Source: Planctopirus ephydatiae (lineage in GTDB: Bacteria; Planctomycetota; Planctomycetia; Planctomycetales; Planctomycetaceae). Taken from it: a stretch of 64,000 nucleotides of DNA. The stretch is from assembly GCF_007752345.1 (NCBI RefSeq), contig NZ_CP036299.1, positions 4,746,001 through 4,810,000 of the forward strand, in the 5' to 3' direction. The notes beneath the pieces were generated by a model. That model ran no database searches, was not told where the DNA came from, and worked only from the letters and a program-made list of their open reading frames with translations. The position numbers were made by a program, and so were the translations under genes. The stretch's first letter is position 1; each line of letters opens with the position of its first letter. Shown in pieces: positions 34,783-46,778 of this stretch.

Positions 34783-36432
34783 TTAATTGGACGGATGAAA
34801 GAGCCTGTAGGTCTTGAAGCCGCCTCCCACGTTCGCGGCAGAGTAACCCGATTGTAGAAGAACGCGTGTCGCCAAATAGCCACGCTGACCCACTTGACAG
34901 TACGTGGCAATCATCCGATGACGTGGTAGTTCGCCCAGGCGGGACCGGAGTTCATCAACCGGCATACTCATTGCTCCAGGAATATGGCCGGTTGCAAATT
35001 CCTGCGGCGTGCGAACGTCCAGTAACAACGGTTGCTCGACAGCAGGAGTCGCCAGGACTGCCTCAACATCGACCTGCGGATGGTCGCCACGCAGCAACCC
35101 ACTCGCCACGAAGCCAGCCATGTTGACGGGGTCCTTCGCCGAACCATACTGCGGTGCGTAGGACAGTTCCATTTCTTCCAGATCGAACACTGTCATTCCC
35201 GCCTGGATCGCCACGGACAGCACGTCGATTCGCTTATCGATGCCGACCCCACCCACGGCCTGTGCCCCCAATACCTGGCCGGTTGTCGGATCGAACAGGA
35301 GCTTTAGCGTCATCGCTTCCGCACCGGGGTAGTAACCGGCGTGGTGTGTTGGATGAACGTAGATTTTTCGGAAGGGGCGTTGGTCTCGGCGTAGAACTTT
35401 CTCGGATGCTCCGGTTATCGCGGCCGTTTTGTCAAACACACCCAGAATGGCAGTTCCTTGGGTTCCCCGGTAAGTCATTGAGCGACCAAACACATTGTCG
35501 GCGGCGATCCGGCCTTGGCGGTTAGCGGGTCCGGCGAGTGGAACCTGAGTCAGGTTGCCCGATACAAAGTCCGTAACCTCGATGGCATCTCCAACCGCAT
35601 AAATGTTCGGGTCGGTTGTCTGCAGGTAACTATTGACCTGAATTCCGCCACGTGGTCCGACTTCCAACCCCGCGTCAATGGCCAGTTTGTTTTCCGGTCG
35701 CACGCCCACCCCCAATATGACCAGTTGGGCTGACAGCCGCTGACCGGAATTCAGACATACGGTCAAGCCGTCCGCAGACGGCTCAAACGATTCCGCGAAT
35801 TGGTCAAGCAATATCGTGACACCCCTGGCAGCCAATTCTTGAACGATCGGCGTGGTCATCTCCTTGTCAAAGGGTGTCAGGATTTGTCCATTCTTCTCAA
35901 CCACGGTGGTCGCGATGCCACGTCGAACGAAATTCTCCGCAAGTTCCAGAGAAATGAAGCCGCCCCCGAGGAGAACGGCTTGCTTTACATCATGGTCGAC
36001 CCGTGCCTTGATCTGATCGGTGTCATGTAGATTCCGCAAGGTGAAGATGCCGGGCAAGTCAATGCCGGGAATTGACGGCCGAAAGGGAGCCGCGCCGGTG
36101 GCGAGAATCAGCTTGTCGTAGGCTTCTTCGTATTCCCGTCCCGATTCGAGGTCGCGGACTCGAATCTTCTTGGCCGTTCGGTCAATGGCTTCGACCGACG
36201 ACCGGGTTCTCACGTCGAGTTGGAAGCGGGATCGTAACAATTCCGGTGTGGTGACGATCAGTTTTTTTCGCTCAGTGATCTCACCTCCGATGTAGTACGG
36301 CAAGCCACAGTTGGCAAACGACACATCTGGTCCCCGTTCGAACACCACAATCTCGGCGTCTTCCGATAAACGACGGGCACGAGCGGCTGCCGAGGCACCT
36401 CCTGCCACTCCACCAACGATGAGTAATTTCAC
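34783..36432 (-). CDS. CoA-disulfide reductase / rhodanese fusion (CoADR-Rhd)
   Basis: I prefer GTG 36432 (AAAGGA nine bases upstream) over TTG 36438. About 549 residues. FAD-binding GGVAGGASAAARARRL, then the redox Cys in SFANCGLPYYIGG (position ~41-43, as in CoA-disulfide reductase), NAD(P)-binding VLLGGGFISLELAE, FAD motif IYAVGDAIE, and the dimerisation domain. The last ~100 residues are a rhodanese domain (LLDVRTPQEFATGHIPGA) with active Cys in YCQVGQRG. Such fusions reduce CoA persulfides and polysulfides. It is the last gene of the sulfur operon, adding persulfide reduction to the oxidation enzymes upstream. Confidence 0.88.
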   Translation of the reverse strand: MKLLIVGGVAGGASAAARARRLSEDAEIVVFERGPDVSFANCGLPYYIGGEITERKKLIVTTPELLRSRFQLDVRTRSSVEAIDRTAKKIRVRDLESGREYEEAYDKLILATGAAPFRPSIPGIDLPGIFTLRNLHDTDQIKARVDHDVKQAVLLGGGFISLELAENFVRRGIATTVVEKNGQILTPFDKEMTTPIVQELAARGVTILLDQFAESFEPSADGLTVCLNSGQRLSAQLVILGVGVRPENKLAIDAGLEVGPRGGIQVNSYLQTTDPNIYAVGDAIEVTDFVSGNLTQVPLAGPANRQGRIAADNVFGRSMTYRGTQGTAILGVFDKTAAITGASEKVLRRDQRPFRKIYVHPTHHAGYYPGAEAMTLKLLFDPTTGQVLGAQAVGGVGIDKRIDVLSVAIQAGMTVFDLEEMELSYAPQYGSAKDPVNMAGFVASGLLRGDHPQVDVEAVLATPAVEQPLLLDVRTPQEFATGHIPGAMSMPVDELRSRLGELPRHRMIATYCQVGQRGYLATRVLLQSGYSAANVGGGFKTYRLFHPSN

Positions 36433-36544
36433 AGTCAAGAATCCTTTGGCAATGACGGAGGATCTTTCGGGGAGCGAAACAGAGAGTTCTGGACGGAATA
36501 TACAGGTTCAACAAGACCCACACGTGGGTCACACCGGAAGTGGG

Positions 36545-37393
36545 CTATCTGCCTGCATCCGCTTCTTCCATTTTCAGTTCGGAATTGAAGGTTCCAAGCT
36601 GCTCTTTCGGTGGGAGATGCTCGCTCAATTGAAACTTGGGGCGCTCATGGGAGTTGACGAAGGCTGCCAGGTCGAGAGCTTCCTGTTCAGTGAGGTCGGT
36701 TTCGTCCAATGGCATCGCGACTTTCAGCCACGAAGCCAGCTGGACGACATTTGCTAATCCTGCCCCGTCGTTAAACGACCGAGCGCCCCAGACTGGCGGA
36801 TTCTCCTTATCACCTTGTCCATTCTTGGCATGGCAGCTTGCACAGCGAACTGAATACAGTCCTTCCCCTCGCTGACGGTTGGCTTGAGTGATATCCACTT
36901 TCAGTTGCGGGACCGCGTGGGGACCGGCGGGCCGTTCTGGGTTCATGCGGATCGGCTGGTCTGTGGATAGCCAGGTGATGTAGGCCGAAATGGAGACTGA
37001 CACTTCACTCCCCAGTGGCGGGCGGATGCCGTTGCAGCTTCGCATGAAGCAGTTGAGGATGCGGTCTTCGAGCGTGATGACGGTCTTCTCGCGCGGCGAC
37101 CACGCGGGATAGGCGGTCGCGACCCCAAGAAACGAAGCCGCCTGCGGATCGGTCCCATTCTTCAGGTGACAGGATGTGCAGTTGAGAGCGTTGCCGACAA
37201 ACGGCTGGGACAAGCGATGACTCGTCGTGTTCTCGACGAGATCCCTGCCCAGTCGGATTGCATCGCCCAATGGTCCCTCAGGAATCGAACGCAGGATGCT
37301 TGATGACTTCTGATCCTCGGCTTGCCCAACCCACGACATTCCGCCGAAGGCGACGATGAGTCCGCAAATCGCCAGCAAAAGATTGCGTTGCAT
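36545..37393 (-). CDS. TsdA-like diheme cytochrome c (thiosulfate dehydrogenase family)
   Basis: 282 residues with signal peptide (LLLAICGLIVAFGGMSWVGQA). Two haem-binding motifs, CTSCH at 72-76 and CASCH at 184-188. The spacing motifs GRDLVENT, FVGNALNCTSCHLKNG, RILNCFMRSCNGIRPP, YITWLS and the late PVWGARSFNDGAGL and NSHERPKF follow the TsdA family pattern. TsdA converts thiosulfate to tetrathionate (or the reverse) in the periplasm. In this operon thiosulfate is the expected product of persulfide oxidation plus rhodanese, so this enzyme would dispose of it. Direction of catalysis cannot be told from sequence. Confidence 0.78.
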   Translation of the reverse strand: MQRNLLLAICGLIVAFGGMSWVGQAEDQKSSSILRSIPEGPLGDAIRLGRDLVENTTSHRLSQPFVGNALNCTSCHLKNGTDPQAASFLGVATAYPAWSPREKTVITLEDRILNCFMRSCNGIRPPLGSEVSVSISAYITWLSTDQPIRMNPERPAGPHAVPQLKVDITQANRQRGEGLYSVRCASCHAKNGQGDKENPPVWGARSFNDGAGLANVVQLASWLKVAMPLDETDLTEQEALDLAAFVNSHERPKFQLSEHLPPKEQLGTFNSELKMEEADAGR

Positions 37394-37412
37394 GTCGACG
37401 ATGTTCCTTGAT

Positions 37413-39050
37413 CTATTGAACTGGAATGTAGGAGTAGCCGTCGGTTTGTTTGTTGATGACCGCGGTCAGGGCGGCAGCGGCAATGGGAACCCCGTCAGTG
37501 ACTTCGCCATCTGGGAAACCTTTGTAGTTGAGGGCCTGGCCGCACACGAGGACTTCCACGCCCGCCTTCTGGAGTTCGCGGATCAACGGGAGATTGGGGT
37601 TCTGCTCAACCTGAAAACGCTCCTTGTAGGCTGCGTCATTCAAGACGGACTTGGTGGCTTCGCCGTGCAGCACAATCGTGATCTTCACGTCCTGGGCTTT
37701 CAGTCCGGCCACCCCGTAGAGATTGAGCAGTCGGGCGACGCGATCGAGCCCTTTGTTGACATCGGCGGGCTTGGCATCAGCGGTGGCATCGAACACCACC
37801 TTGGCACCTGCCCGTGGTTGTTCGACTGCTTTAGGACGGGGCAGAACCCCGCCGTGCTTCGGAATGATCGGAAACTCCAGCTTCGGAGCGGCTGGCAGAA
37901 CGGCCGGCACGGGATGATTCTTGTGCGCCTCATCGAATCCATGAGCGACAAACTGACTGACGACCTCGGCATGAGCCTGGATCAATCTGACTACCGCTTT
38001 GTCATCAGACGTTTCGACGACCTTGACGCCTTGCTCGGTCTTTTCGACCGTCATCTTGATGCTGGCGTGCTTCTGGAAGATCGCGACGAACAATTCATCC
38101 CAGAATCGGAGCCCGCGCCCGTCCTTAATCCGCTGGTGCATGGACGCGACATGCTCCTGGATTTTTGTGGCAACTTCCTTGTTGTCGGACTCCGTCAGCG
38201 TTTCGACACCGTTGTCGAGCCGTTTGACCGAGCGGCGAATCTCCTTATGGTGATCGAGAAGGAAATGGAACACGTCCTGATCCGCCCGCATCTCCGGGCC
38301 AGGGCCACGGCCCATTCCCCGACCGCGTCCTGGGCGAGGTTCTGTGGCCGTGTTGGCGGGAGTGGGCTTTTCAAAGACGACGAAATAGTTCTCCTTGAGC
38401 AGTTCCCGCTCTTCGTAGACCTTCTTGAGACCCGTTTGAAGGATCTCCGCCTCGAAGACTTCCTGTCCCGCCCGCACGTGGTTCATGACCCAGTCGGTGC
38501 TCGACCCATCAACACGACGAAAGTCCACCAGAATGACCCGTCCGCCCGGTTTCAATGCCCGGTGCAGCGACGCCATCGTCTTGAGTGGAAACTCGAAATG
38601 GTGGTAGGTATCGCAGATGAACGCGACATCGACCGATTCAGGCGGCAGTTCCGTCGAATCGGCTTTGCTGAGCAATGTTTCCACATTCCGTTGTCCCGCA
38701 TCACGGCTGGTTGCCAGAATGTGATCGAGAAACTTCTGCGCGATATCGACGGCAATCACCTTTCCGTCTTTTCCCACAGCTTCTGAAAACAACCGAGTGA
38801 ACAGGCCGGTTCCTGCCCCGATGTCGGCCACCGTCTGCCCTGGCTGAATCTCGCAGGCCGCCACGATCTCTTTACGGTGGGAGAAGACCTCGCGACTCTC
38901 GACCTCAAACTTGCCGAGAAACTCTTTCGGGTCGGGTTCGCGAAAGGAGTCATTGATGCCGGGCTTCACGCTTTTCTCTTGCGCTACGCCGACTGCAACG
39001 CAAGAAGCGGCGCATGCCAGAACGCCGAACATGTGAACAATACGATTCAT
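37413..39050 (-). CDS. exported three-domain fusion: SAM methyltransferase + helical domain + DsrE-like
   Basis: A 545-residue protein with a signal peptide (VHMFGVLACAASCVAVGVA). Residues ~50-225 are a class I methyltransferase: motif I VADIGAGTGLFTRLF, acidic VIAVDIA, then GGRVILVDF. A Pro/Gly/Arg linker (RPGRGRGMGRGPGP) leads to an alpha-helical domain (~255-385, HHKEIRRSVKRLDNGVETL and a second similar half ASIKMTVEKTEQGVKVVE). Residues ~415-545 resemble the DsrE/DsrF-like fold (AKVVFDATADAKP, ITIVLHGEAT, LIRELQKAGVEVLVCGQAL with Cys in the DsrE position). Signal peptide on a SAM-dependent domain is odd. Lies between the sulfide oxidoreductase and the TsdA-like gene. Function unknown. Confidence 0.7.
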   Translation of the reverse strand: MNRIVHMFGVLACAASCVAVGVAQEKSVKPGINDSFREPDPKEFLGKFEVESREVFSHRKEIVAACEIQPGQTVADIGAGTGLFTRLFSEAVGKDGKVIAVDIAQKFLDHILATSRDAGQRNVETLLSKADSTELPPESVDVAFICDTYHHFEFPLKTMASLHRALKPGGRVILVDFRRVDGSSTDWVMNHVRAGQEVFEAEILQTGLKKVYEERELLKENYFVVFEKPTPANTATEPRPGRGRGMGRGPGPEMRADQDVFHFLLDHHKEIRRSVKRLDNGVETLTESDNKEVATKIQEHVASMHQRIKDGRGLRFWDELFVAIFQKHASIKMTVEKTEQGVKVVETSDDKAVVRLIQAHAEVVSQFVAHGFDEAHKNHPVPAVLPAAPKLEFPIIPKHGGVLPRPKAVEQPRAGAKVVFDATADAKPADVNKGLDRVARLLNLYGVAGLKAQDVKITIVLHGEATKSVLNDAAYKERFQVEQNPNLPLIRELQKAGVEVLVCGQALNYKGFPDGEVTDGVPIAAAALTAVINKQTDGYSYIPVQ

Positions 39051-39107: not shown

Positions 39108-40304
39108 CTACATGCGGCCTTTCAGCATTCCGTGCCAATAGAAGACGGGCAGCAGATATCGCTTAAGAATCCACATGCTCCAGCGTTCTTTCGATTGGTC
39201 GACCGGGAATGTCTCGGCGGGTTGCTTGTCGTAGTCGAATTCGGCCAGCACCAGCTTGCCGATGCCCGTCACCACGGGACACGAGGTATAGCCATCGTAC
39301 TTCGTACTCAGTGGTTGGCCTTGCATCGCTGCAAGAAGGTTTTTGACGACGACCGGTGCCTGCTTGCGGATAGCGGCACCGGTTTTGGATGTCGGCAGAT
39401 TGCTGCAATCGCCCAGGGCGAAGACATTCGCGAACCGGACGTGGCGAAGTGAGTCTTTATCGATCTCGACCCATCCCTGCTTGTCCGCGATCGCGCTCCT
39501 CGCGATGAAGCCGGGCGGCCCCATGGGTGGGGTCACGTGCAAGAGGTCGAACGGAATGGTTACCGTCTCCTGCGTCTCGAGGTTGATGAAATCCGCCTCT
39601 TGGGACTCGGCTCGAATGGCAACGAGTTCGTGGCGGAAACGACATTCGATCTGCTTTCGGGCGATCACCTTGAGCAGGGTCGCCCGGTACTTTTCGACGG
39701 CGAATATGTTTTGTAGTGCCGAGGCGTAGATGATCTTCGTCTTATCCCGGACACCCGCTTCGCGGAACCGATCATCGGCCAGATACATGATTTTCTGCGG
39801 TGCACCGCCGCACTTGACTGCGCCGGAGGGATTAGTGAAGACCGCGTTGCCACCGCGAAAGTTGCGAATGGCCTCCCAGGTCGAATCGACGGTTGAATAC
39901 GAGTAGTTACTGCAGACACCATGTTTGCCGATCGACTCTCGCAGGCCGGGAATCTGGTCCCAATTGACCTGCAATCCAGCAGCGACCACCAGCCAATCGT
40001 AGGTGACGGTTTTGCCGTCCTGCGTCCGAATCGTGTTCTGTTCGGGGAGAAATTCGGAGACGGCGTCCCTAATCCAAGTCACGCCGCGCGGAATGACCGA
40101 GGCTTCCGTGTGTTCGGTGGCCTCTTTCTTTGCCAATCCGGCTCCCACCATCGTCCAGAGCGGCTGGTAGTAATGTTTGTCCGATGGCTCGATGACCGCC
40201 ACATCGCGGGAATTGAACCAGCCCCTCGTCAGTTGAGCGGCCACTGTAATGCCGGCTGTGCCGCCGCCGACGATGACGATTTGATGGTGAATGGTTTCAG
40301 ACAT
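39108..40304 (-). CDS. sqr: sulfide:quinone oxidoreductase
   Basis: ATG 40304 gives a 398-residue flavoprotein starting HHQIVIVGGGTAGITVAAQL. The pattern matches SQR of the eukaryotic/type II kind: HYYQPLWTMVGAGL, CSNYSYSTVDSTWEAI, TNPSGAVKCGGAPQKIMYLA (redox Cys), TPPMGPPGF, NVFALGDCSNLPTSKTGAAIRKQAPVV and TSCPVVTGIGKLVLAEFDY, ending with the amphipathic KRYLLPVFYWHGMLKG tail that attaches to the membrane. It oxidises sulfide to sulfane sulfur, passing electrons to quinone; the persulfide product feeds the dioxygenase and rhodaneses of this operon. Confidence 0.9.
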   Translation of the reverse strand: MSETIHHQIVIVGGGTAGITVAAQLTRGWFNSRDVAVIEPSDKHYYQPLWTMVGAGLAKKEATEHTEASVIPRGVTWIRDAVSEFLPEQNTIRTQDGKTVTYDWLVVAAGLQVNWDQIPGLRESIGKHGVCSNYSYSTVDSTWEAIRNFRGGNAVFTNPSGAVKCGGAPQKIMYLADDRFREAGVRDKTKIIYASALQNIFAVEKYRATLLKVIARKQIECRFRHELVAIRAESQEADFINLETQETVTIPFDLLHVTPPMGPPGFIARSAIADKQGWVEIDKDSLRHVRFANVFALGDCSNLPTSKTGAAIRKQAPVVVKNLLAAMQGQPLSTKYDGYTSCPVVTGIGKLVLAEFDYDKQPAETFPVDQSKERWSMWILKRYLLPVFYWHGMLKGRM

Positions 40305-40326
40305 GAGGTGATTCTTTACTCGGGGT

Positions 40327-41145
40327 TCAGGCACTGAGATTTTGAACGATGACAAAGACGGCCACCGCGAGGATGGCGATTACAAAGACTTTCTGGAGCG
40401 CGGGGCCGGACAACCGACGACCGATCTGCTGACCGGCAAATAACCCTGCAATCCCTCCAATGACGAACAGGACCGTGACCACCGGAGAGATGGCATGGCC
40501 GGCCCACAGTTGCGATGCGACGCCTGACACACTGACCAGCGCAATCACCATCAGGGACGTGCCGACAGCGCGGTGAATCGACATGCCGCTGAAAAGCACC
40601 AGGGCGGGGACAATGACGAAGCCACCCCCAACACCGAAGATTCCCGACAACACGCCGGTTAACACGCCCACGATGAGCAGCAACACGGCGCACCGCGAGT
40701 TCAAGATCAGAACCCCGGCAGCGTCACGCTGGCAGGTGGGACCATCCACCTGTTCCGGGGCCGGACAAGCTGGTCCAGGAATGACCGGATGCGAAGCCTG
40801 TTGCCAGAGTCGTATAGCGACAATCACCATCAGGCCGGCGAATGACAACAGCAGCACTGTCTCGGGCAGGAATCCAGCGATCCAGGTGCCCACCGGAGCG
40901 CCCACCATGCCTGCGGCTGCGAACAACAATCCGGTGCGGATCTCGACCTGACCCAGCTTCCAGCGATGTAGAAAACCAACGAATGAAGTCGCGCCAACAG
41001 CCGCGAGCGAGATCCCGACCGCTTCTCGTGCATCCACACCCAGTCCGTACACCAGCAACGGAACCGCGAAGATCGCTCCACCGCCACCGGTCAGTCCCAG
41101 CGATAAACCAACCACCATTCCGAAAATCAAGCTCAATGGTGCCAT
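40327..41145 (-). CDS. TauE/SafE family sulfite/organosulfur exporter
   Basis: The frame opens 49 codons upstream but ATG 41145 has AGGAAGG before it and starts a TM helix. 272 residues; about eight TM helices with the family motif GLSLGLTGGGGAIFAVPLLVYGLGVDAREAVG and a second copy GVLSGIFGVGGGFVIVPALVLF. TauE/SafE proteins export sulfite or sulfoacetate; in sulfide operons they probably remove sulfite made by persulfide dioxygenase. A His/Pro-rich loop with Cys (VIPGPACPAPEQ) lies between the halves. Confidence 0.85.
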   Translation of the reverse strand: MAPLSLIFGMVVGLSLGLTGGGGAIFAVPLLVYGLGVDAREAVGISLAAVGATSFVGFLHRWKLGQVEIRTGLLFAAAGMVGAPVGTWIAGFLPETVLLLSFAGLMVIVAIRLWQQASHPVIPGPACPAPEQVDGPTCQRDAAGVLILNSRCAVLLLIVGVLTGVLSGIFGVGGGFVIVPALVLFSGMSIHRAVGTSLMVIALVSVSGVASQLWAGHAISPVVTVLFVIGGIAGLFAGQQIGRRLSGPALQKVFVIAILAVAVFVIVQNLSA

Positions 41146-41191
41146 GATGCCTTCCTGAATCTCGTCGACTTTGCGATTGACCGACTTTCGA

Positions 41192-41446
41192 TCAATCCGC
41201 CGACTCCGACTTCTCGGGAATGCACAGTTTGTCTGCCGATTCGCGACACGCACCTCGCTGGGCGGTGACTCGCTTCCAGACGCCATAGCCAATCAAGGCT
41301 GGTGCGATCATGAAGCACAGGGGGCAGGTCACCCCCGCCAAGAATGCTGTGCCCGTCCCCACGGCTCCCAGCCCAGCACCGAGTGCCATGCAGGAGTTCG
41401 CTTCTCGGATTTCTGCGTTGCGGTCAGGTTGAAAAGAGTTAGTCAT
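41192..41446 (-). CDS. small membrane protein with CPLC motif (84 aa)
   Basis: ATG 41446 (GGGAGA upstream) is chosen instead of the frame opening at 41536. It overlaps the stop of the 57-aa gene (ATGA). Two hydrophobic segments (ALGAGLGAVGTGTAFLAG and FMIAPALIGYGVW) flank a CPLC motif (VTCPLCFM), reminiscent of the CxxC in small metal or mercury transporters. A Cys-containing tail follows (RGACRESADKLCIPEK). Probably a thiol- or metal-handling membrane protein serving the sulfide operon; family not recognised. Confidence 0.65.
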   Translation of the reverse strand: MTNSFQPDRNAEIREANSCMALGAGLGAVGTGTAFLAGVTCPLCFMIAPALIGYGVWKRVTAQRGACRESADKLCIPEKSESAD

Positions 41447-41616
41447 TGGAGTGTCTCCCACAAGGCACTGGCGATCAGCCAGACGACGACCAGCCCCCAG
41501 ACAATTACGCATGGGGAACAGATACCCGTTCGACAACCCCGTTCGTCACAGGCAGCTCCCGTTGCTGTCGGAACAGTGCTGGAATCCGGGACAATTTTGT
41601 GTCGTTCGATACTCAT
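41443..41616 (-). CDS. 57-residue Cys-rich tail-anchored membrane peptide
   Basis: Below the usual ORF size cutoffs but well supported: ATG 41616 has AGGGG seven bases upstream, and the stop overlaps the next start by ATGA. Sequence features: a polar N-terminus, four Cys in CDERGCRTGICSPC (residues 23, 28, 33, 36; spacing C-x4-C-x4-C-x2-C), then one TM helix (VIVWGLVVVWLIASALW). Both it and the next gene carry Cys near the membrane, so they may form a pair that binds metal or sulfane sulfur. Family not recognised. Confidence 0.7.
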   Translation of the reverse strand: MSIERHKIVPDSSTVPTATGAACDERGCRTGICSPCVIVWGLVVVWLIASALWETLQ

Positions 41617-41647: not shown

Positions 41648-43051
<1,404 letters not shown>

Positions 43052-43106: not shown

Positions 43107-43700
43107 TTATCCGCAGCAGGATGACTTCGGGGCACAGGCGGCCCCGCTGCTCGGGGTTCCGACCGTCGGCGCTTTCGGAACTTGATTCCAAGGCATGCGG
43201 GCGAGAATCATCCCCATGCCACACGTGTCAGTGATTCCGGCGAACGTGAGACCCGCTCCGACGAAGGCCGACAATCCAATCCAGTACGGGCTGACGAACG
43301 CGCCGAGCACCGATCCGACCAGCACCAGCAAGCCCGCGGCGATCCGCACTTGCCGTTCGAGGGAAATGGCCTTCTGGCCACGGACGACAGGCAACCCCGC
43401 CTGATCCCACGCCTGCGTGCCGCCTTCGACGTTCACGACATTCGTGTAGCCCGCCGCGAGAAACTTCTCGCAAGCCTGCTTCCCGCGACTGCCCGAGCGA
43501 CAAATGACATACAGCGGCGCCGAGCCATTTCGACCGGAGGCAAGCTCCGTCGCGTTCAGCTGATCAAGTGGCACGTTGCGGGCGAAGTCTACGTGGACTT
43601 CGCGATACTCGACCGGCGTCCGAACATCGATCAGTTCGACCGACTGGCCCGATTGGACGAGGTCGTGCAGTTGCTTCGGAGACATCGTCGTGACGTTCAT
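43107..43700 (-). CDS. membrane rhodanese (rhodanese + DUF2892, YgaP-like)
   Basis: 197 residues. An N-terminal rhodanese domain (ELIDVRTPVEYREVHVDFARN, catalytic Cys in VICRSGSRGKQA) followed by the DUF2892 pair of TM helices (VRIAAGLLVLVGSVLGAFVS, GLSAFVGAGLTFAGITDTCGMGMIL) and a Cys-rich tail (ACAPKSSCCG). Matches E. coli YgaP, a membrane sulfurtransferase. First structural gene of the sulfur operon, behind a candidate ArsR operator. Confidence 0.9.
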   Translation of the reverse strand: MNVTTMSPKQLHDLVQSGQSVELIDVRTPVEYREVHVDFARNVPLDQLNATELASGRNGSAPLYVICRSGSRGKQACEKFLAAGYTNVVNVEGGTQAWDQAGLPVVRGQKAISLERQVRIAAGLLVLVGSVLGAFVSPYWIGLSAFVGAGLTFAGITDTCGMGMILARMPWNQVPKAPTVGTPSSGAACAPKSSCCG

Positions 43701-43778: not shown

Positions 43779-44093
43779 CTACTTGCCTTTGCCGGAATCA
43801 AATCGGTCTTCAATGCACTTGAGAATGTGCTTCAAGTGCGGCTCAATAACGTGATAGTAAACCTTCCGCCCGTCCTTCTCGCTGGACAGGAATCCGCAGC
43901 GCTGCATCAGCCGCAAGTGCTCCGACGCCATCGCCGTGGGAAGCTCGCAGGCTTCCGCCAGTTCAGTAACGGTATGGTCGCCCTGCAGGAGCATCTGAAC
44001 CATCCGCAACCGGTGCGGGTGAGCCAGAACGCGGAGACACTCTGCTGCCTGCCCTAAGGCTTCCAAATTGGTCAATCGCTGTGTCGTGCTCAA
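43779..44093 (-). CDS. ArsR-family transcriptional repressor, sulfur-operon regulator
   Basis: 104 residues: LRVLAHPHRLRMVQMLLQGDHTV, then the winged helix TELAEACELPTAMASEHLRLMQRCGFL with recognition helix TAMASEHLRLM, and wing KDGRKVYYHV. Four Cys occur (in AAECLR, EACELP, QRCGF and LKCIED), allowing a metal- or persulfide-sensing disulfide as in SqrR/BigR, though positions differ from those I recall. It precedes the sulfur operon in the same direction and its own promoter has a palindrome. I infer derepression by sulfide or persulfide. Confidence 0.85.
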   Translation of the reverse strand: MSTTQRLTNLEALGQAAECLRVLAHPHRLRMVQMLLQGDHTVTELAEACELPTAMASEHLRLMQRCGFLSSEKDGRKVYYHVIEPHLKHILKCIEDRFDSGKGK

Positions 44094-44513: not shown

Positions 44514-46778
44514 TCAGTTCCGCAGACGTTTTGCCTCTTCCAGCGTGATCGCACCGTCTTTGTCGACGTCAAGCCGCATCAGGTTTTCGCGTTGAGCCTC
44601 GGGAATCTCATCGCCCTTCAGTTTGCCATCGCTGTTTCGGTCGAGACGTTTGAAGATCGCTTCGAGGTCGAAGCCAGGGCGTCCCCCGCCAGCGACTCCG
44701 CGCCGACCGTATAAGGAAAGCGAATCGCCGGGCTTGGCACCGGGGATGTAGTATTCGACGTAACCCAAGTGCATTTCGTCGAACGTCTGTGCCCCCCAGC
44801 GGACCGTCTTGGTGGGGTCGGGGTTGGCGGGATTCTTATCACTGTTGTCGTACCACACCGTGAAGCGAATCGTATCGCCAGCATGCAGCGACAGCGGTTC
44901 AAAGTAGCGGTAGAGCAATTGCCAGTTGAAGTCGTAGCGGGGGATGTCCAGCAGCGTCCTGATCTGGCCATCGGACTTAGTCACTTCGTATTTGCACGCC
45001 TTGCCGCGCAGGTGCATGTGAGGCAGAAAGCCCGTGATCTGTGCGTCCATCGGGAGTCGCAGAACGGCCTCTTCTCGATGGTTCTCAGCCCCCGGCGGGA
45101 TGCTGATCCGGGCATTGACAATCCCGGCCACGCGGATTTCGTGCTGGGGCGGTTCTTTAGCCCAGATTAAACCGATGCGCGTCTGGTCCGAAGTGGCAGT
45201 ACCGTTCGGTGTGTAGTGCATCTGGAATTTGAGTTTCGCTCCCTCCGGGATACGTTTCGCGAACCCTTGGGGATAAACCAGCGTGCTGTTACCTGGCACG
45301 TAGATGCCCCAGAACCCGCCCCGCTCGGCAGCGGCATCGTCGACTGGTTCTTCACCCTCGGCATCCCCCCCTTGGACGAACACCAGCACATGATGGACGA
45401 CGCCCCGGTCGCCCGGCTGCACTTCGATGGCCTGCACCCATTTGTCTTCGGTGAGATTCGTTTCGACGATGATGTTCTGATAGGGCATTACGCCGGTCGC
45501 CTTGATCGGCACCGGCTTGGCGAACTGAAAGACGGCATCCGGCTTGCCGATCAGCCAGCCCTCATCAAACTTGAGTGGCTGGGGAGCGTCGCGGCGATCC
45601 CCAGCCGGCTTGCCTCCGGCGATCCAGTCGAGCAGGTCTTTTTTCTCAGAATCAGCCAGGGAACGGTCATTCGCCCAGGGAGTGTGGACCGCCTGTGATT
45701 TGGCGTCCGGTTTCGGCTCGACCGCGAACCACGGCGGCATGATCCCGCGCTCGACGACCTGCTTCACCATACCGGCATGGGCGACGAGATCGTCGTACGT
45801 GTCCAGGGCGAACGGCCCCACGCCTCCCTCGCGATGACATTCGACGCAGTGCCGCTGCATGATCCGTGAAATGCGATTGTGATACGTCACGCCGGAGGTT
45901 TGCGGCCCTTTCGATGGTTGCTCCAGTGTGCAGCCCGGCGCTTCCGTGGCGGAAACAAGTGGCTGTCTTCCGGCGGTGATCGCTGCGAGCGCGTCGGCCA
46001 GATACCTATAGCGTGGAGAGTCGATGGAGTAACCAAAACCGTACTGATCGTCGATGGCTCCGTGATAGACGACGGTTCGGGCCGCATCGAGGACAATGAC
46101 ATCGGTTGTCGTTAGTGCTCCGAGCGTCGCCGCCAGTTGACCGTCCTTATCGTGAACGTAGATCGCGCGGTCACCGAACTGACCGGTCGCAGTCTGCATG
46201 TCGGCCAGTTTGTCGGTGGCCAGAGGATTGACGAGCACCCACGTGACGTCTTGGCCCGAACTTTTCACCAGCTCGACGAGAGTCGGTAGATACTTCTTGC
46301 TCAACGGACAGCTGGTACTCGTCATGGCGAACACAGTCACGCGTGCTTTCGCAAACTCACTGAGCTTATGTGACATGCCCGGCAGATCCACGAACGAAAC
46401 TTCTGGGACAAAACGACCGATCCCGTGATCGCCCGGACGAACCGGCTGCGGTCCCTGTCGAACCGGAGCTTCGGCTGGCGTTGGACCCGTGGGAGCGGAA
46501 GTCGCGGGCTTCGGCTTGAGCAGATCGTTCTTCCCGCCGCGGGCCAGCGCCTTGGCTGCCTCAGGCTTGGTGATCTCACCGTTGCCATCGAGGTCAAGTC
46601 GTTTGAAGAACTCGGCGGCGGGCAGTTCGTCCGGCGTGATATTGCCGTCGCTGTTCTTGTCGAGCTGGTCGAACCGCTTCTCGACGGCTCCCTGCGCCCA
46701 GACGCGACGAGCAAGCGGAATGACGCAGACGGCAACAGCAAACAGCGCGATGATGATCGCAAACCGACGACGCTTCAT
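44514..46778 (-). CDS. multidomain exported protein: EF-hands, redoxin, cytochrome, monooxygenase-like
   Basis: 754 residues with an N-terminal signal/anchor (FAIIIALFAVAVCVIPLA). Two EF-hands follow (DKNSDGNITPDEL, DLDGNGEITKPEA). Residues ~125-270 are a thioredoxin-fold redoxin (TSTSCPLSKKYLPTLVELV) with only the first Cys. A cytochrome c motif CVECH lies near residue 315. Next comes a copper type II monooxygenase-like (PHM-like) region: GVVHHVLVFV, KFQMHYTPNG, HMHLRGKACKYEV. The C-terminus has two more EF-hands (DRNSDGKLKGDEI, DVDKDGAITLEEA). Planctomycetes encode several such proteins; activity is unknown. It lies upstream of the sulfur operon on the same strand but is separated by 420 bases. 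Confidence 0.7.
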   Translation of the reverse strand: MKRRRFAIIIALFAVAVCVIPLARRVWAQGAVEKRFDQLDKNSDGNITPDELPAAEFFKRLDLDGNGEITKPEAAKALARGGKNDLLKPKPATSAPTGPTPAEAPVRQGPQPVRPGDHGIGRFVPEVSFVDLPGMSHKLSEFAKARVTVFAMTSTSCPLSKKYLPTLVELVKSSGQDVTWVLVNPLATDKLADMQTATGQFGDRAIYVHDKDGQLAATLGALTTTDVIVLDAARTVVYHGAIDDQYGFGYSIDSPRYRYLADALAAITAGRQPLVSATEAPGCTLEQPSKGPQTSGVTYHNRISRIMQRHCVECHREGGVGPFALDTYDDLVAHAGMVKQVVERGIMPPWFAVEPKPDAKSQAVHTPWANDRSLADSEKKDLLDWIAGGKPAGDRRDAPQPLKFDEGWLIGKPDAVFQFAKPVPIKATGVMPYQNIIVETNLTEDKWVQAIEVQPGDRGVVHHVLVFVQGGDAEGEEPVDDAAAERGGFWGIYVPGNSTLVYPQGFAKRIPEGAKLKFQMHYTPNGTATSDQTRIGLIWAKEPPQHEIRVAGIVNARISIPPGAENHREEAVLRLPMDAQITGFLPHMHLRGKACKYEVTKSDGQIRTLLDIPRYDFNWQLLYRYFEPLSLHAGDTIRFTVWYDNSDKNPANPDPTKTVRWGAQTFDEMHLGYVEYYIPGAKPGDSLSLYGRRGVAGGGRPGFDLEAIFKRLDRNSDGKLKGDEIPEAQRENLMRLDVDKDGAITLEEAKRLRN

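Follow-up and report, generated by a model that had tools for sequence, protein, structure and literature searches.

The gene on the minus strand at 37413-39050 of the window (the whole stretch of 64,000 nucleotides that was analysed) is real and encodes a protein in which a leader is followed by a UbiE-type class I methyltransferase domain (MT), a duplicated domain (HD) and a DsrE-like domain. As far as can be read from the sequence, it brings together known domain families in an exported combination with an undescribed domain, and it is not unique to the window. The protein is very probably exported from the cytoplasm, and its gene belongs to a co-directional run that reads as a planctomycete sulfide-oxidation operon. 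Among candidate substrates of MT, thiols or persulfides have the strongest backing, which comes by association. Export and the sulfur linkage are supported by the comparisons set out below, whereas S-methylation and the loading of a persulfide on Cys503 of the DsrE-like domain are steps that we infer. The parts of the gene are as follows, with the evidence for each in brackets.

37413..39050, minus strand: whole fusion gene, 545 aa (open reading frame, Pfam, orthologues)
38979..39050, minus strand: signal-peptide-like leader, aa 1-24 (hydrophobic stretch, fast drift, N-side charge)
38355..38978, minus strand: class I methyltransferase domain, aa 25-232 (Pfam, 65-row conservation, 3dh0 fold match)
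38289..38354, minus strand: Gly/Arg-rich linker, aa 233-254 (sequence)
37893..38288, minus strand: HD domain, aa 255-386, duplicated (self-alignment, AlphaFold2, invariant His)
37416..37892, minus strand: DsrE-like domain, aa 387-545 (Pfam, alignments, PDB profile matches 2pd2 and 1l1s)

An open reading frame on the opposite strand (37356-38786, plus) is taken to be a shadow of the fusion gene on the basis of their overlap.

The leader and the three mature domains

The N-terminus of the fusion, MNRIVHMFGVLACAASCVAVGVAQ followed by EKS, resembles a Sec leader, with MNR ahead of an uncharged stretch and a cleavage site, judged by eye, after VAQ. Of 65 related MT rows, 58 have a hydrophobic stretch ahead of the conserved start of the mature protein, which reads SVxPGIN in this exported planctomycete family. 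Six of the seven rows without the stretch carry another domain or extension ahead of MT, and the remaining one, L157, has a hydrophobicity of 1.63 against the cut of 1.8 used for calling a leader. Among the leader-bearing rows 11 have a lipobox-like site. It is very improbable that the leader is an anchor leaving MT in the cytoplasm, or that the true start lies downstream and nothing is exported. Export is predicted here from sequence, and when the genome's four other MT proteins were taken as controls, one (L003) also had a hydrophobic N-terminus that passes the leader measure, so that hydrophobicity by itself is non-specific; against this, an AxA-like site follows the stretch in 55 of the 58 rows, and the next Met downstream falls inside the MT domain. 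Furthermore, the N flank is the more positive in 50 of the 58 rows and the C flank in 3, which would place MT outside even if the segment were retained, and stand-alone HD and DsrE relatives, inspected by eye, bear leaders too. The claim of the earlier note that this is an exported signal-peptide protein is thus upheld at the level of sequence, and the inward-facing membrane anchor that it had set against export was not found.

Purifying selection acts on the mature domains, whose dN/dS lies between 0.055 and 0.139 against G320 and G325 (0.129 and 0.065, respectively, for MT, 0.139 and 0.055 for HD, and 0.074 and 0.135 for DsrE), the comparisons with G332 and L084 being mostly saturated at synonymous sites. 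The leader has a pN/pS of 0.54 to 0.78 in four comparisons, 0.54 being the value against both G320 and G325. Conserved mature domains beside a drifting leader indicate that the three domains are kept and that the leader evolves as leaders do.

The methyltransferase domain recognised in the earlier note is clear, matching PF08241 at aa 76-174 (E 7.1e-17, 62.3 bits against a cut-off of 21.2) and Ubie_methyltran PF01209 with 50.5 bits (cut-off 20.1). Its motifs comprise D76xG78xG80xG82, the acidic residue D102 after strand 2, and a block resembling an active site, C146-D147-x-Y149-H150-H151-F152-E153. In an alignment of 65 distinct best matches of at least 40% identity, a selection that inflates conservation, D76, G78, G80 and G82 occur in 65 of 65 rows and D102 in 63, and C146, D147, H150, H151, F152, E153, H191, R193, E202 and Y222 are likewise present in every row. 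The absence of SAM-binding residues, which the same note had named as evidence against the domain, is therefore not what the alignment reveals, and a degenerate MT finds no support, given the conservation of the SAM motifs together with the low dN/dS. The best PDB match of the fusion model is the Aquifex SAM methyltransferase 3dh0, and the models and structures closest to MT are of the UbiE-like, plant phosphoethanolamine MT and PmtA-like kinds. Among NCBIfam models, MT scores under the cut-offs of the UbiE/MenG equivalog NF001240 (56.8 bits against 378) and the ArsM arsenite methyltransferase NF008823 (49.7 bits against 263). The exported planctomycete family has the same MT, 45-92% identical to that of the fusion and with a leader in 58 of 65 rows; unlike the fusion, rows below 59% identity carry neither HD nor DsrE within the same protein.

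HD, by its sequence, is an undescribed duplicated domain. Self-comparison gives 15 of 60 identities at an offset of 60, a value reached by a fraction of 5e-5 of 20,000 shuffles, and a 48-row alignment has a mean identity of 23% at offset 60 against 5-10% at the other offsets from 57 to 63. The duplication proposed earlier therefore stands, whereas the helical character proposed with it does not, as AlphaFold2 predicts an alpha-beta-beta-alpha unit that occurs twice (48 rows, mean pLDDT 94.9). Alignment A3 contains three invariant residues, His45, His105 and His124 in the numbering of the window row, of which the first two lie 60 apart at equivalent places in both repeats. HD has no family match in Pfam or among the best 25 of 52 NCBIfam matches, the whole of aa 233-386 giving just chance-level matches below cut-off in the same two sources, and a profile search of PDB sequences likewise returned chance-level matches only (best E 0.23). 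No Foldseek match to PDB folds reached E <= 0.001 and the best VIA match had a Z of 5.8 with an rmsd of 2.9 over 75 residues, which does not make the fold new. The predicted model of the full-length fusion has a pLDDT of 88.4, and the placement of its domains is not fixed because the pTM is only 0.45. To the eye, the Gly/Arg-rich linker ahead of HD resembles the leaders of many stand-alone HD proteins.

The C-terminal domain matches PF02635 in Pfam at aa 446-542 (E 3.8e-13, 50.1 bits against a cut-off of 22.7) and has the motifs VCGQ, containing Cys503, and HGxAT, containing His462. Cys503 is invariant in the 15-row DsrE alignment A6 and aligns with a Cys of 1l1s and 2pd2 in the PDB profile search, which bears out the earlier description of a DsrE-like domain with a Cys. 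The above-cut-off match and the conserved Cys are shared with the DsrE/DsrF-like family (PF02635) of the MTH1491/ST0148 type, from which the fusion differs in that its DsrE domain is of exported type and joined to MT.

The sulfide run and the relatives of the fusion

The genes around the fusion are, in their order along the minus strand, as follows.

43779..44093, minus strand: ArsR-family regulator (NF033788, 80.1 bits, cut-off 55)
43107..43700, minus strand: rhodanese with YgaP-like membrane domain (Pfam)
41648..43051, minus strand: metallo-beta-lactamase (MBL) plus rhodanese protein (Pfam)
41192..41536, minus strand: 114 aa protein between the TauE and dioxygenase-like genes (open reading frame)
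40327..41292, minus strand: TauE/SafE permease (PF01925)
39108..40355, minus strand: type III sulfide:quinone reductase (SQR)-like protein (NF049943, 250 bits, below the cut-off of 525)
36545..37393, minus strand: c-type cytochrome with SoxA/TsdA-like domain (PF21342)
34783..36438, minus strand: CoA-disulfide reductase-like plus rhodanese protein (TIGR03385, 473 bits, below the cut-off of 578.8)

The fusion gene stands between the SQR-like and cytochrome genes, with gaps of 57 bases before it and 19 after it. It is thus co-directional with CstB-like, TauE and SQR-like genes, in agreement with its earlier placement within a sulfur operon. Functions in the run are family-level assignments, and the matches to the models for SQR and CoA-disulfide reductase fall under the respective cut-offs. 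From its domain order the protein at 41648..43051 appears CstB/persulfide-dioxygenase-like. Its other matches in the genome are restricted to the rhodanese part, and the sole other match of the SQR-like protein is 26% identical; a second full-length close match of either protein was not found in the genome. The 114 aa protein has no family match in Pfam or among the best 25 of 52 NCBIfam matches, and no DsrF/DsrH partner was seen among the Pfam and NCBIfam matches listed for the ten proteins scanned at the locus. With Blh (DUF442-ETHE1), CstB and the bigR/cst-type operons the locus shares an ArsR-type regulator, the family to which the repressor BigR belongs, as well as TauE, MBL-rhodanese and SQR-like genes; unlike this run, those operons contain, to our knowledge, no MT-HD-DsrE gene. 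At the upstream end of the run, a 754 aa protein (44514-46778, minus strand) has Pfam matches to EF-hand repeats and redoxin and weak ones to cytochrome and copper monooxygenase C-terminal domains.

Some match to the fusion occurs in at least 266 of 294 Planctomycetota genomes and in at least 149 of 150 genomes of the same family, many of these being general MT matches. The relatives comprise MT, HD or DsrE on its own and the combinations MT-DsrE (21 distinct rows), HD-DsrE and MT-HD-DsrE. The three-domain order is found in one frame in the window, G320 (91% identical), G325/L079 (81%), G332/L085/L147 (67%) and L084, where the last residues are lost at the contig end, and L086/G423 has the three domains with DsrE in another frame. 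The same one-frame order at other loci, together with the low dN/dS of the mature domains, places the observation beyond chance. A unique architecture is ruled out, since other genomes carry the whole order and sub-sets of it. No description of the exact fusion was found in the literature (open-licence PMC papers), so that the statement of the earlier note that it knew of no described protein of this kind holds for the exact architecture; it does not extend to the MT-DsrE fusion, with its 21 rows, or to an MT bearing a predicted Sec signal, of which MddM2 is a published example.

HD is present in 15 of 294 Planctomycetota genomes and is sporadic elsewhere. In the phylum to which L116 (an Acidobacteriota record) belongs, 8 of 149 genomes have it, three of them as weak partial matches, and in that of L123 (a Sorangium record) 1 of 112 does. 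In trees of 65 MT rows and 60 DsrE rows, proteins that share an architecture do not group into one clade, modules having been gained or lost more than once. That the three-domain order arose only once is not supported: its label takes 3 changes in the tree of MT and 4 in that of DsrE, and starred branches force at least two in each. In the DsrE tree the domain of L098 (Emcibacter, Pseudomonadota) adjoins that of Gimesia with 93/79 support, and this record is possibly a misplaced contig.

Linkage to sulfur metabolism was counted with tblastn, a locus scoring as linked when any of six core sulfide genes lay no more than 5 kb away in the same orientation; several loci have less than 5 kb on one side. 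Such a gene lies near 15 of 21 MT-DsrE loci, 15 of 26 HD-DsrE loci and 3 of the 5 further three-domain loci, of which one is broken, and near 9 of 27 HD-only, 2 of 4 DsrE-only and 4 of 21 MT-only loci. The count omits the window itself, L085 (which repeats L147), L107 (which repeats L036) and any module match with a coverage below 70%; it takes L086 as three-domain though its DsrE is in another frame and L104 as HD-DsrE though the genes are separate neighbours, and it enters L118 and L082 in two groups each. A count based on open reading frames gives a similar picture (MT-DsrE 14/21, HD-DsrE 13/25, three-domain 2/4, HD-only 8/20, DsrE-only 3/3, MT-only 4/18), overlooking loci whose genes the ORF picker displaced, and the tblastn count is the one used. 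Across these groups linkage tracks DsrE rather than MT alone, and three of the four MT-only loci near sulfide genes come from one tight clade. In the same-genus strain G321, the MT-DsrE locus L145 has TauE, dioxygenase-like and rhodanese genes next to it. No core sulfide gene is nearby at 6 of 21 MT-DsrE and 2 of 5 other three-domain loci, and at four of these eight loci one side extends for under 5 kb. DsrE and HD are encoded by separate, adjoining genes at L104, and separate HD and MT genes adjoin inside a sulfide cluster at L118.

The same exported MT is joined to three Cys-based sulfur-transfer families, namely DsrE, rhodanese and the BLH/DUF442 type. A leader-MT-rhodanese fusion with the rhodanese C-terminal is encoded at L158:4905-5951 (PF00581, E 6e-13), a similar one by sequence lies at L159:5320-6393, and both rhodanese fusions have an HCARG loop. 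At L019 a BLH/DUF442-type domain is N-terminal to MT, with an E of 3.9e-4 and a score under the curated cut-off for PF04273, which we take to be the former DUF442; its HCASA(N/S)RVG loop is also found, by sequence, in L030 and L118. In the available text of PMC5823870, DUF442 is described as a sulfurtransferase in Blh. Elsewhere, at L151:4737-6455, the same MT is followed by a C-terminal half of glycoside-hydrolase-like character (GH130/43/32 matches), a partner at odds with a purely sulfur role.

Possible roles of the fused methyltransferase

A sulfur role for the fusion is suggested by its operon position, by the sulfide-gene linkage at other loci and by the fusions to three sulfur-transfer families. 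In the reading that we favor, plausible though somewhat short of probable, it is an extracytoplasmic enzyme in which the Cys domain loads sulfane sulfur and MT S-methylates sulfide, a thiol or a persulfide. Cys503 would take up the sulfane sulfur, and MT would methylate the sulfide, thiol or persulfide offered by DsrE, in the manner of MddM2-type enzymes acting on H2S and methanethiol, yielding a less reactive methylated product. HD would be a binding or docking module, perhaps with a metal or ligand bound by the two His at equivalent places of its repeats. SAM is not known to be available outside the cytoplasm. The export of a SAM enzyme, earlier called a paradox, is indeed unusual; it is not unprecedented, since the UbiE-family S-methyltransferase MddM2 has a predicted Sec signal, and this precedent makes the export of a UbiE-type S-methyltransferase less paradoxical (PMC12904073, in the text available). 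According to the same portion of PMC12904073, the T. bispora homologue of MddM2 uses SAM in vitro to methylate H2S and MeSH, activity in the host of MddM2 resides in both the membrane fraction and the cytosol, and MddM1 and MddM2 measure 210 and 204 aa. MddM2 is the closest analogue with experimental tests that was found. MddM2 and MddH are SAM-dependent MTs of the UbiE type, the type to which the MT of the fusion is assigned by Pfam match, motif and fold, and the predicted Sec signal peptide of MddM2 is paralleled by the signal-peptide-like leader. Relative to MddM1 and MddM2, and also to MddH and human TMT1A/B, the fusion adds HD and DsrE and sits in a sulfide-oxidation run.

Several observations, besides the matter of SAM, count against S-methylation. 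No core sulfide genes are near 17 of 21 MT-only loci, and MT may therefore have another substrate; some MT-DsrE and three-domain loci likewise lack such genes nearby, HD-DsrE proteins serve similar operons with no MT in the same protein, and one MT relative has the glycoside-hydrolase-like partner (L151). In another reading the MT fold is kept outside for binding, for structure or for another ligand, and DsrE and HD do the work, the protein being a carrier of sulfane sulfur in the periplasm that hands it on to the adjacent cytochrome c or back to the dioxygenase route. This is possible, though somewhat doubtful. HD-DsrE (15/26) and DsrE-only (2/4) proteins do lie beside the same kind of genes, Cys503 is invariant in 15 rows and no supply of SAM is known outside, whereas SAM motifs and a C146-D147...H150-H151 block retained in 65 of 65 rows, along with MT dN/dS values of 0.129 and 0.065, are hard to reconcile with a mere scaffold.

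An extracytoplasmic target other than sulfur, such as a quinone, lipid, protein or glycan, with the gene having joined the sulfur operon for a side reason, is unlikely. Its attraction lies in the UbiE-like, plant phosphoethanolamine MT and PmtA-like character of the nearest models and structures, in the varied neighbours of MT-only genes and in the glycoside-hydrolase-like partner at L151; it accounts poorly for the fusions to three sulfur-transfer families, for the sulfide genes near 15 of 21 MT-DsrE loci and for the missed UbiE equivalog cut-off. Quite improbable is the methylation of a metalloid (As, Se or Te), to which an ArsR-type regulator at the head of the run, the invariant Cys146 and weak arsenite-methyltransferase model matches might point. 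The arsenic methylation raised as an option in the earlier note finds little support, as NF008823 is matched with 49.7 bits against a cut-off of 263, and the matches listed for the ten scanned proteins include none to arsenic resistance, weak MT ones aside. The similar repressor BigR senses sulfide, according to the available text of PMC5823870. The part of PMC6620896 available concerns DsrE genes under arsenite stress and not the fusion gene.

Extracytoplasmic S-methylation, if true, would imply a SAM supply beyond those known, or an enzyme already charged with SAM when exported, and would give bacterial sulfide disposal a new branch leading to methylated sulfur compounds. Planctomycetes could then be producers of methanethiol or dimethyl sulfide, and the question arises of whether SAM is present outside the cytoplasm of these bacteria. 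Extended to planctomycetes, with SAM-dependent S-methylation outside the cytoplasm, fused DsrE, rhodanese or DUF442 domains presenting the persulfide and HD providing a docking or metal site, the proposal is distinctly doubtful. An exported MT family with three sulfur-transfer partners is a useful lead for substrate assignment, and HD is of interest as an undescribed domain often found beside sulfide-oxidation genes.

HD also occurs alone, with leaders that by eye are rich in Gly/Arg, Met/His or Cys. Besides the window, HD loci include L035, L036, L037, L104, L118, L121 and L123. A weak YHS/TRASH-like match, below cut-off, lies at the end of HD in L117, and L041 encodes an HD protein with a Tll0287 domain. 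The HD proteins at L120:5680-6390 and L124:2385-3023 have an RRSF motif in the leader, which resembles a Tat signal and may point to export in folded form.
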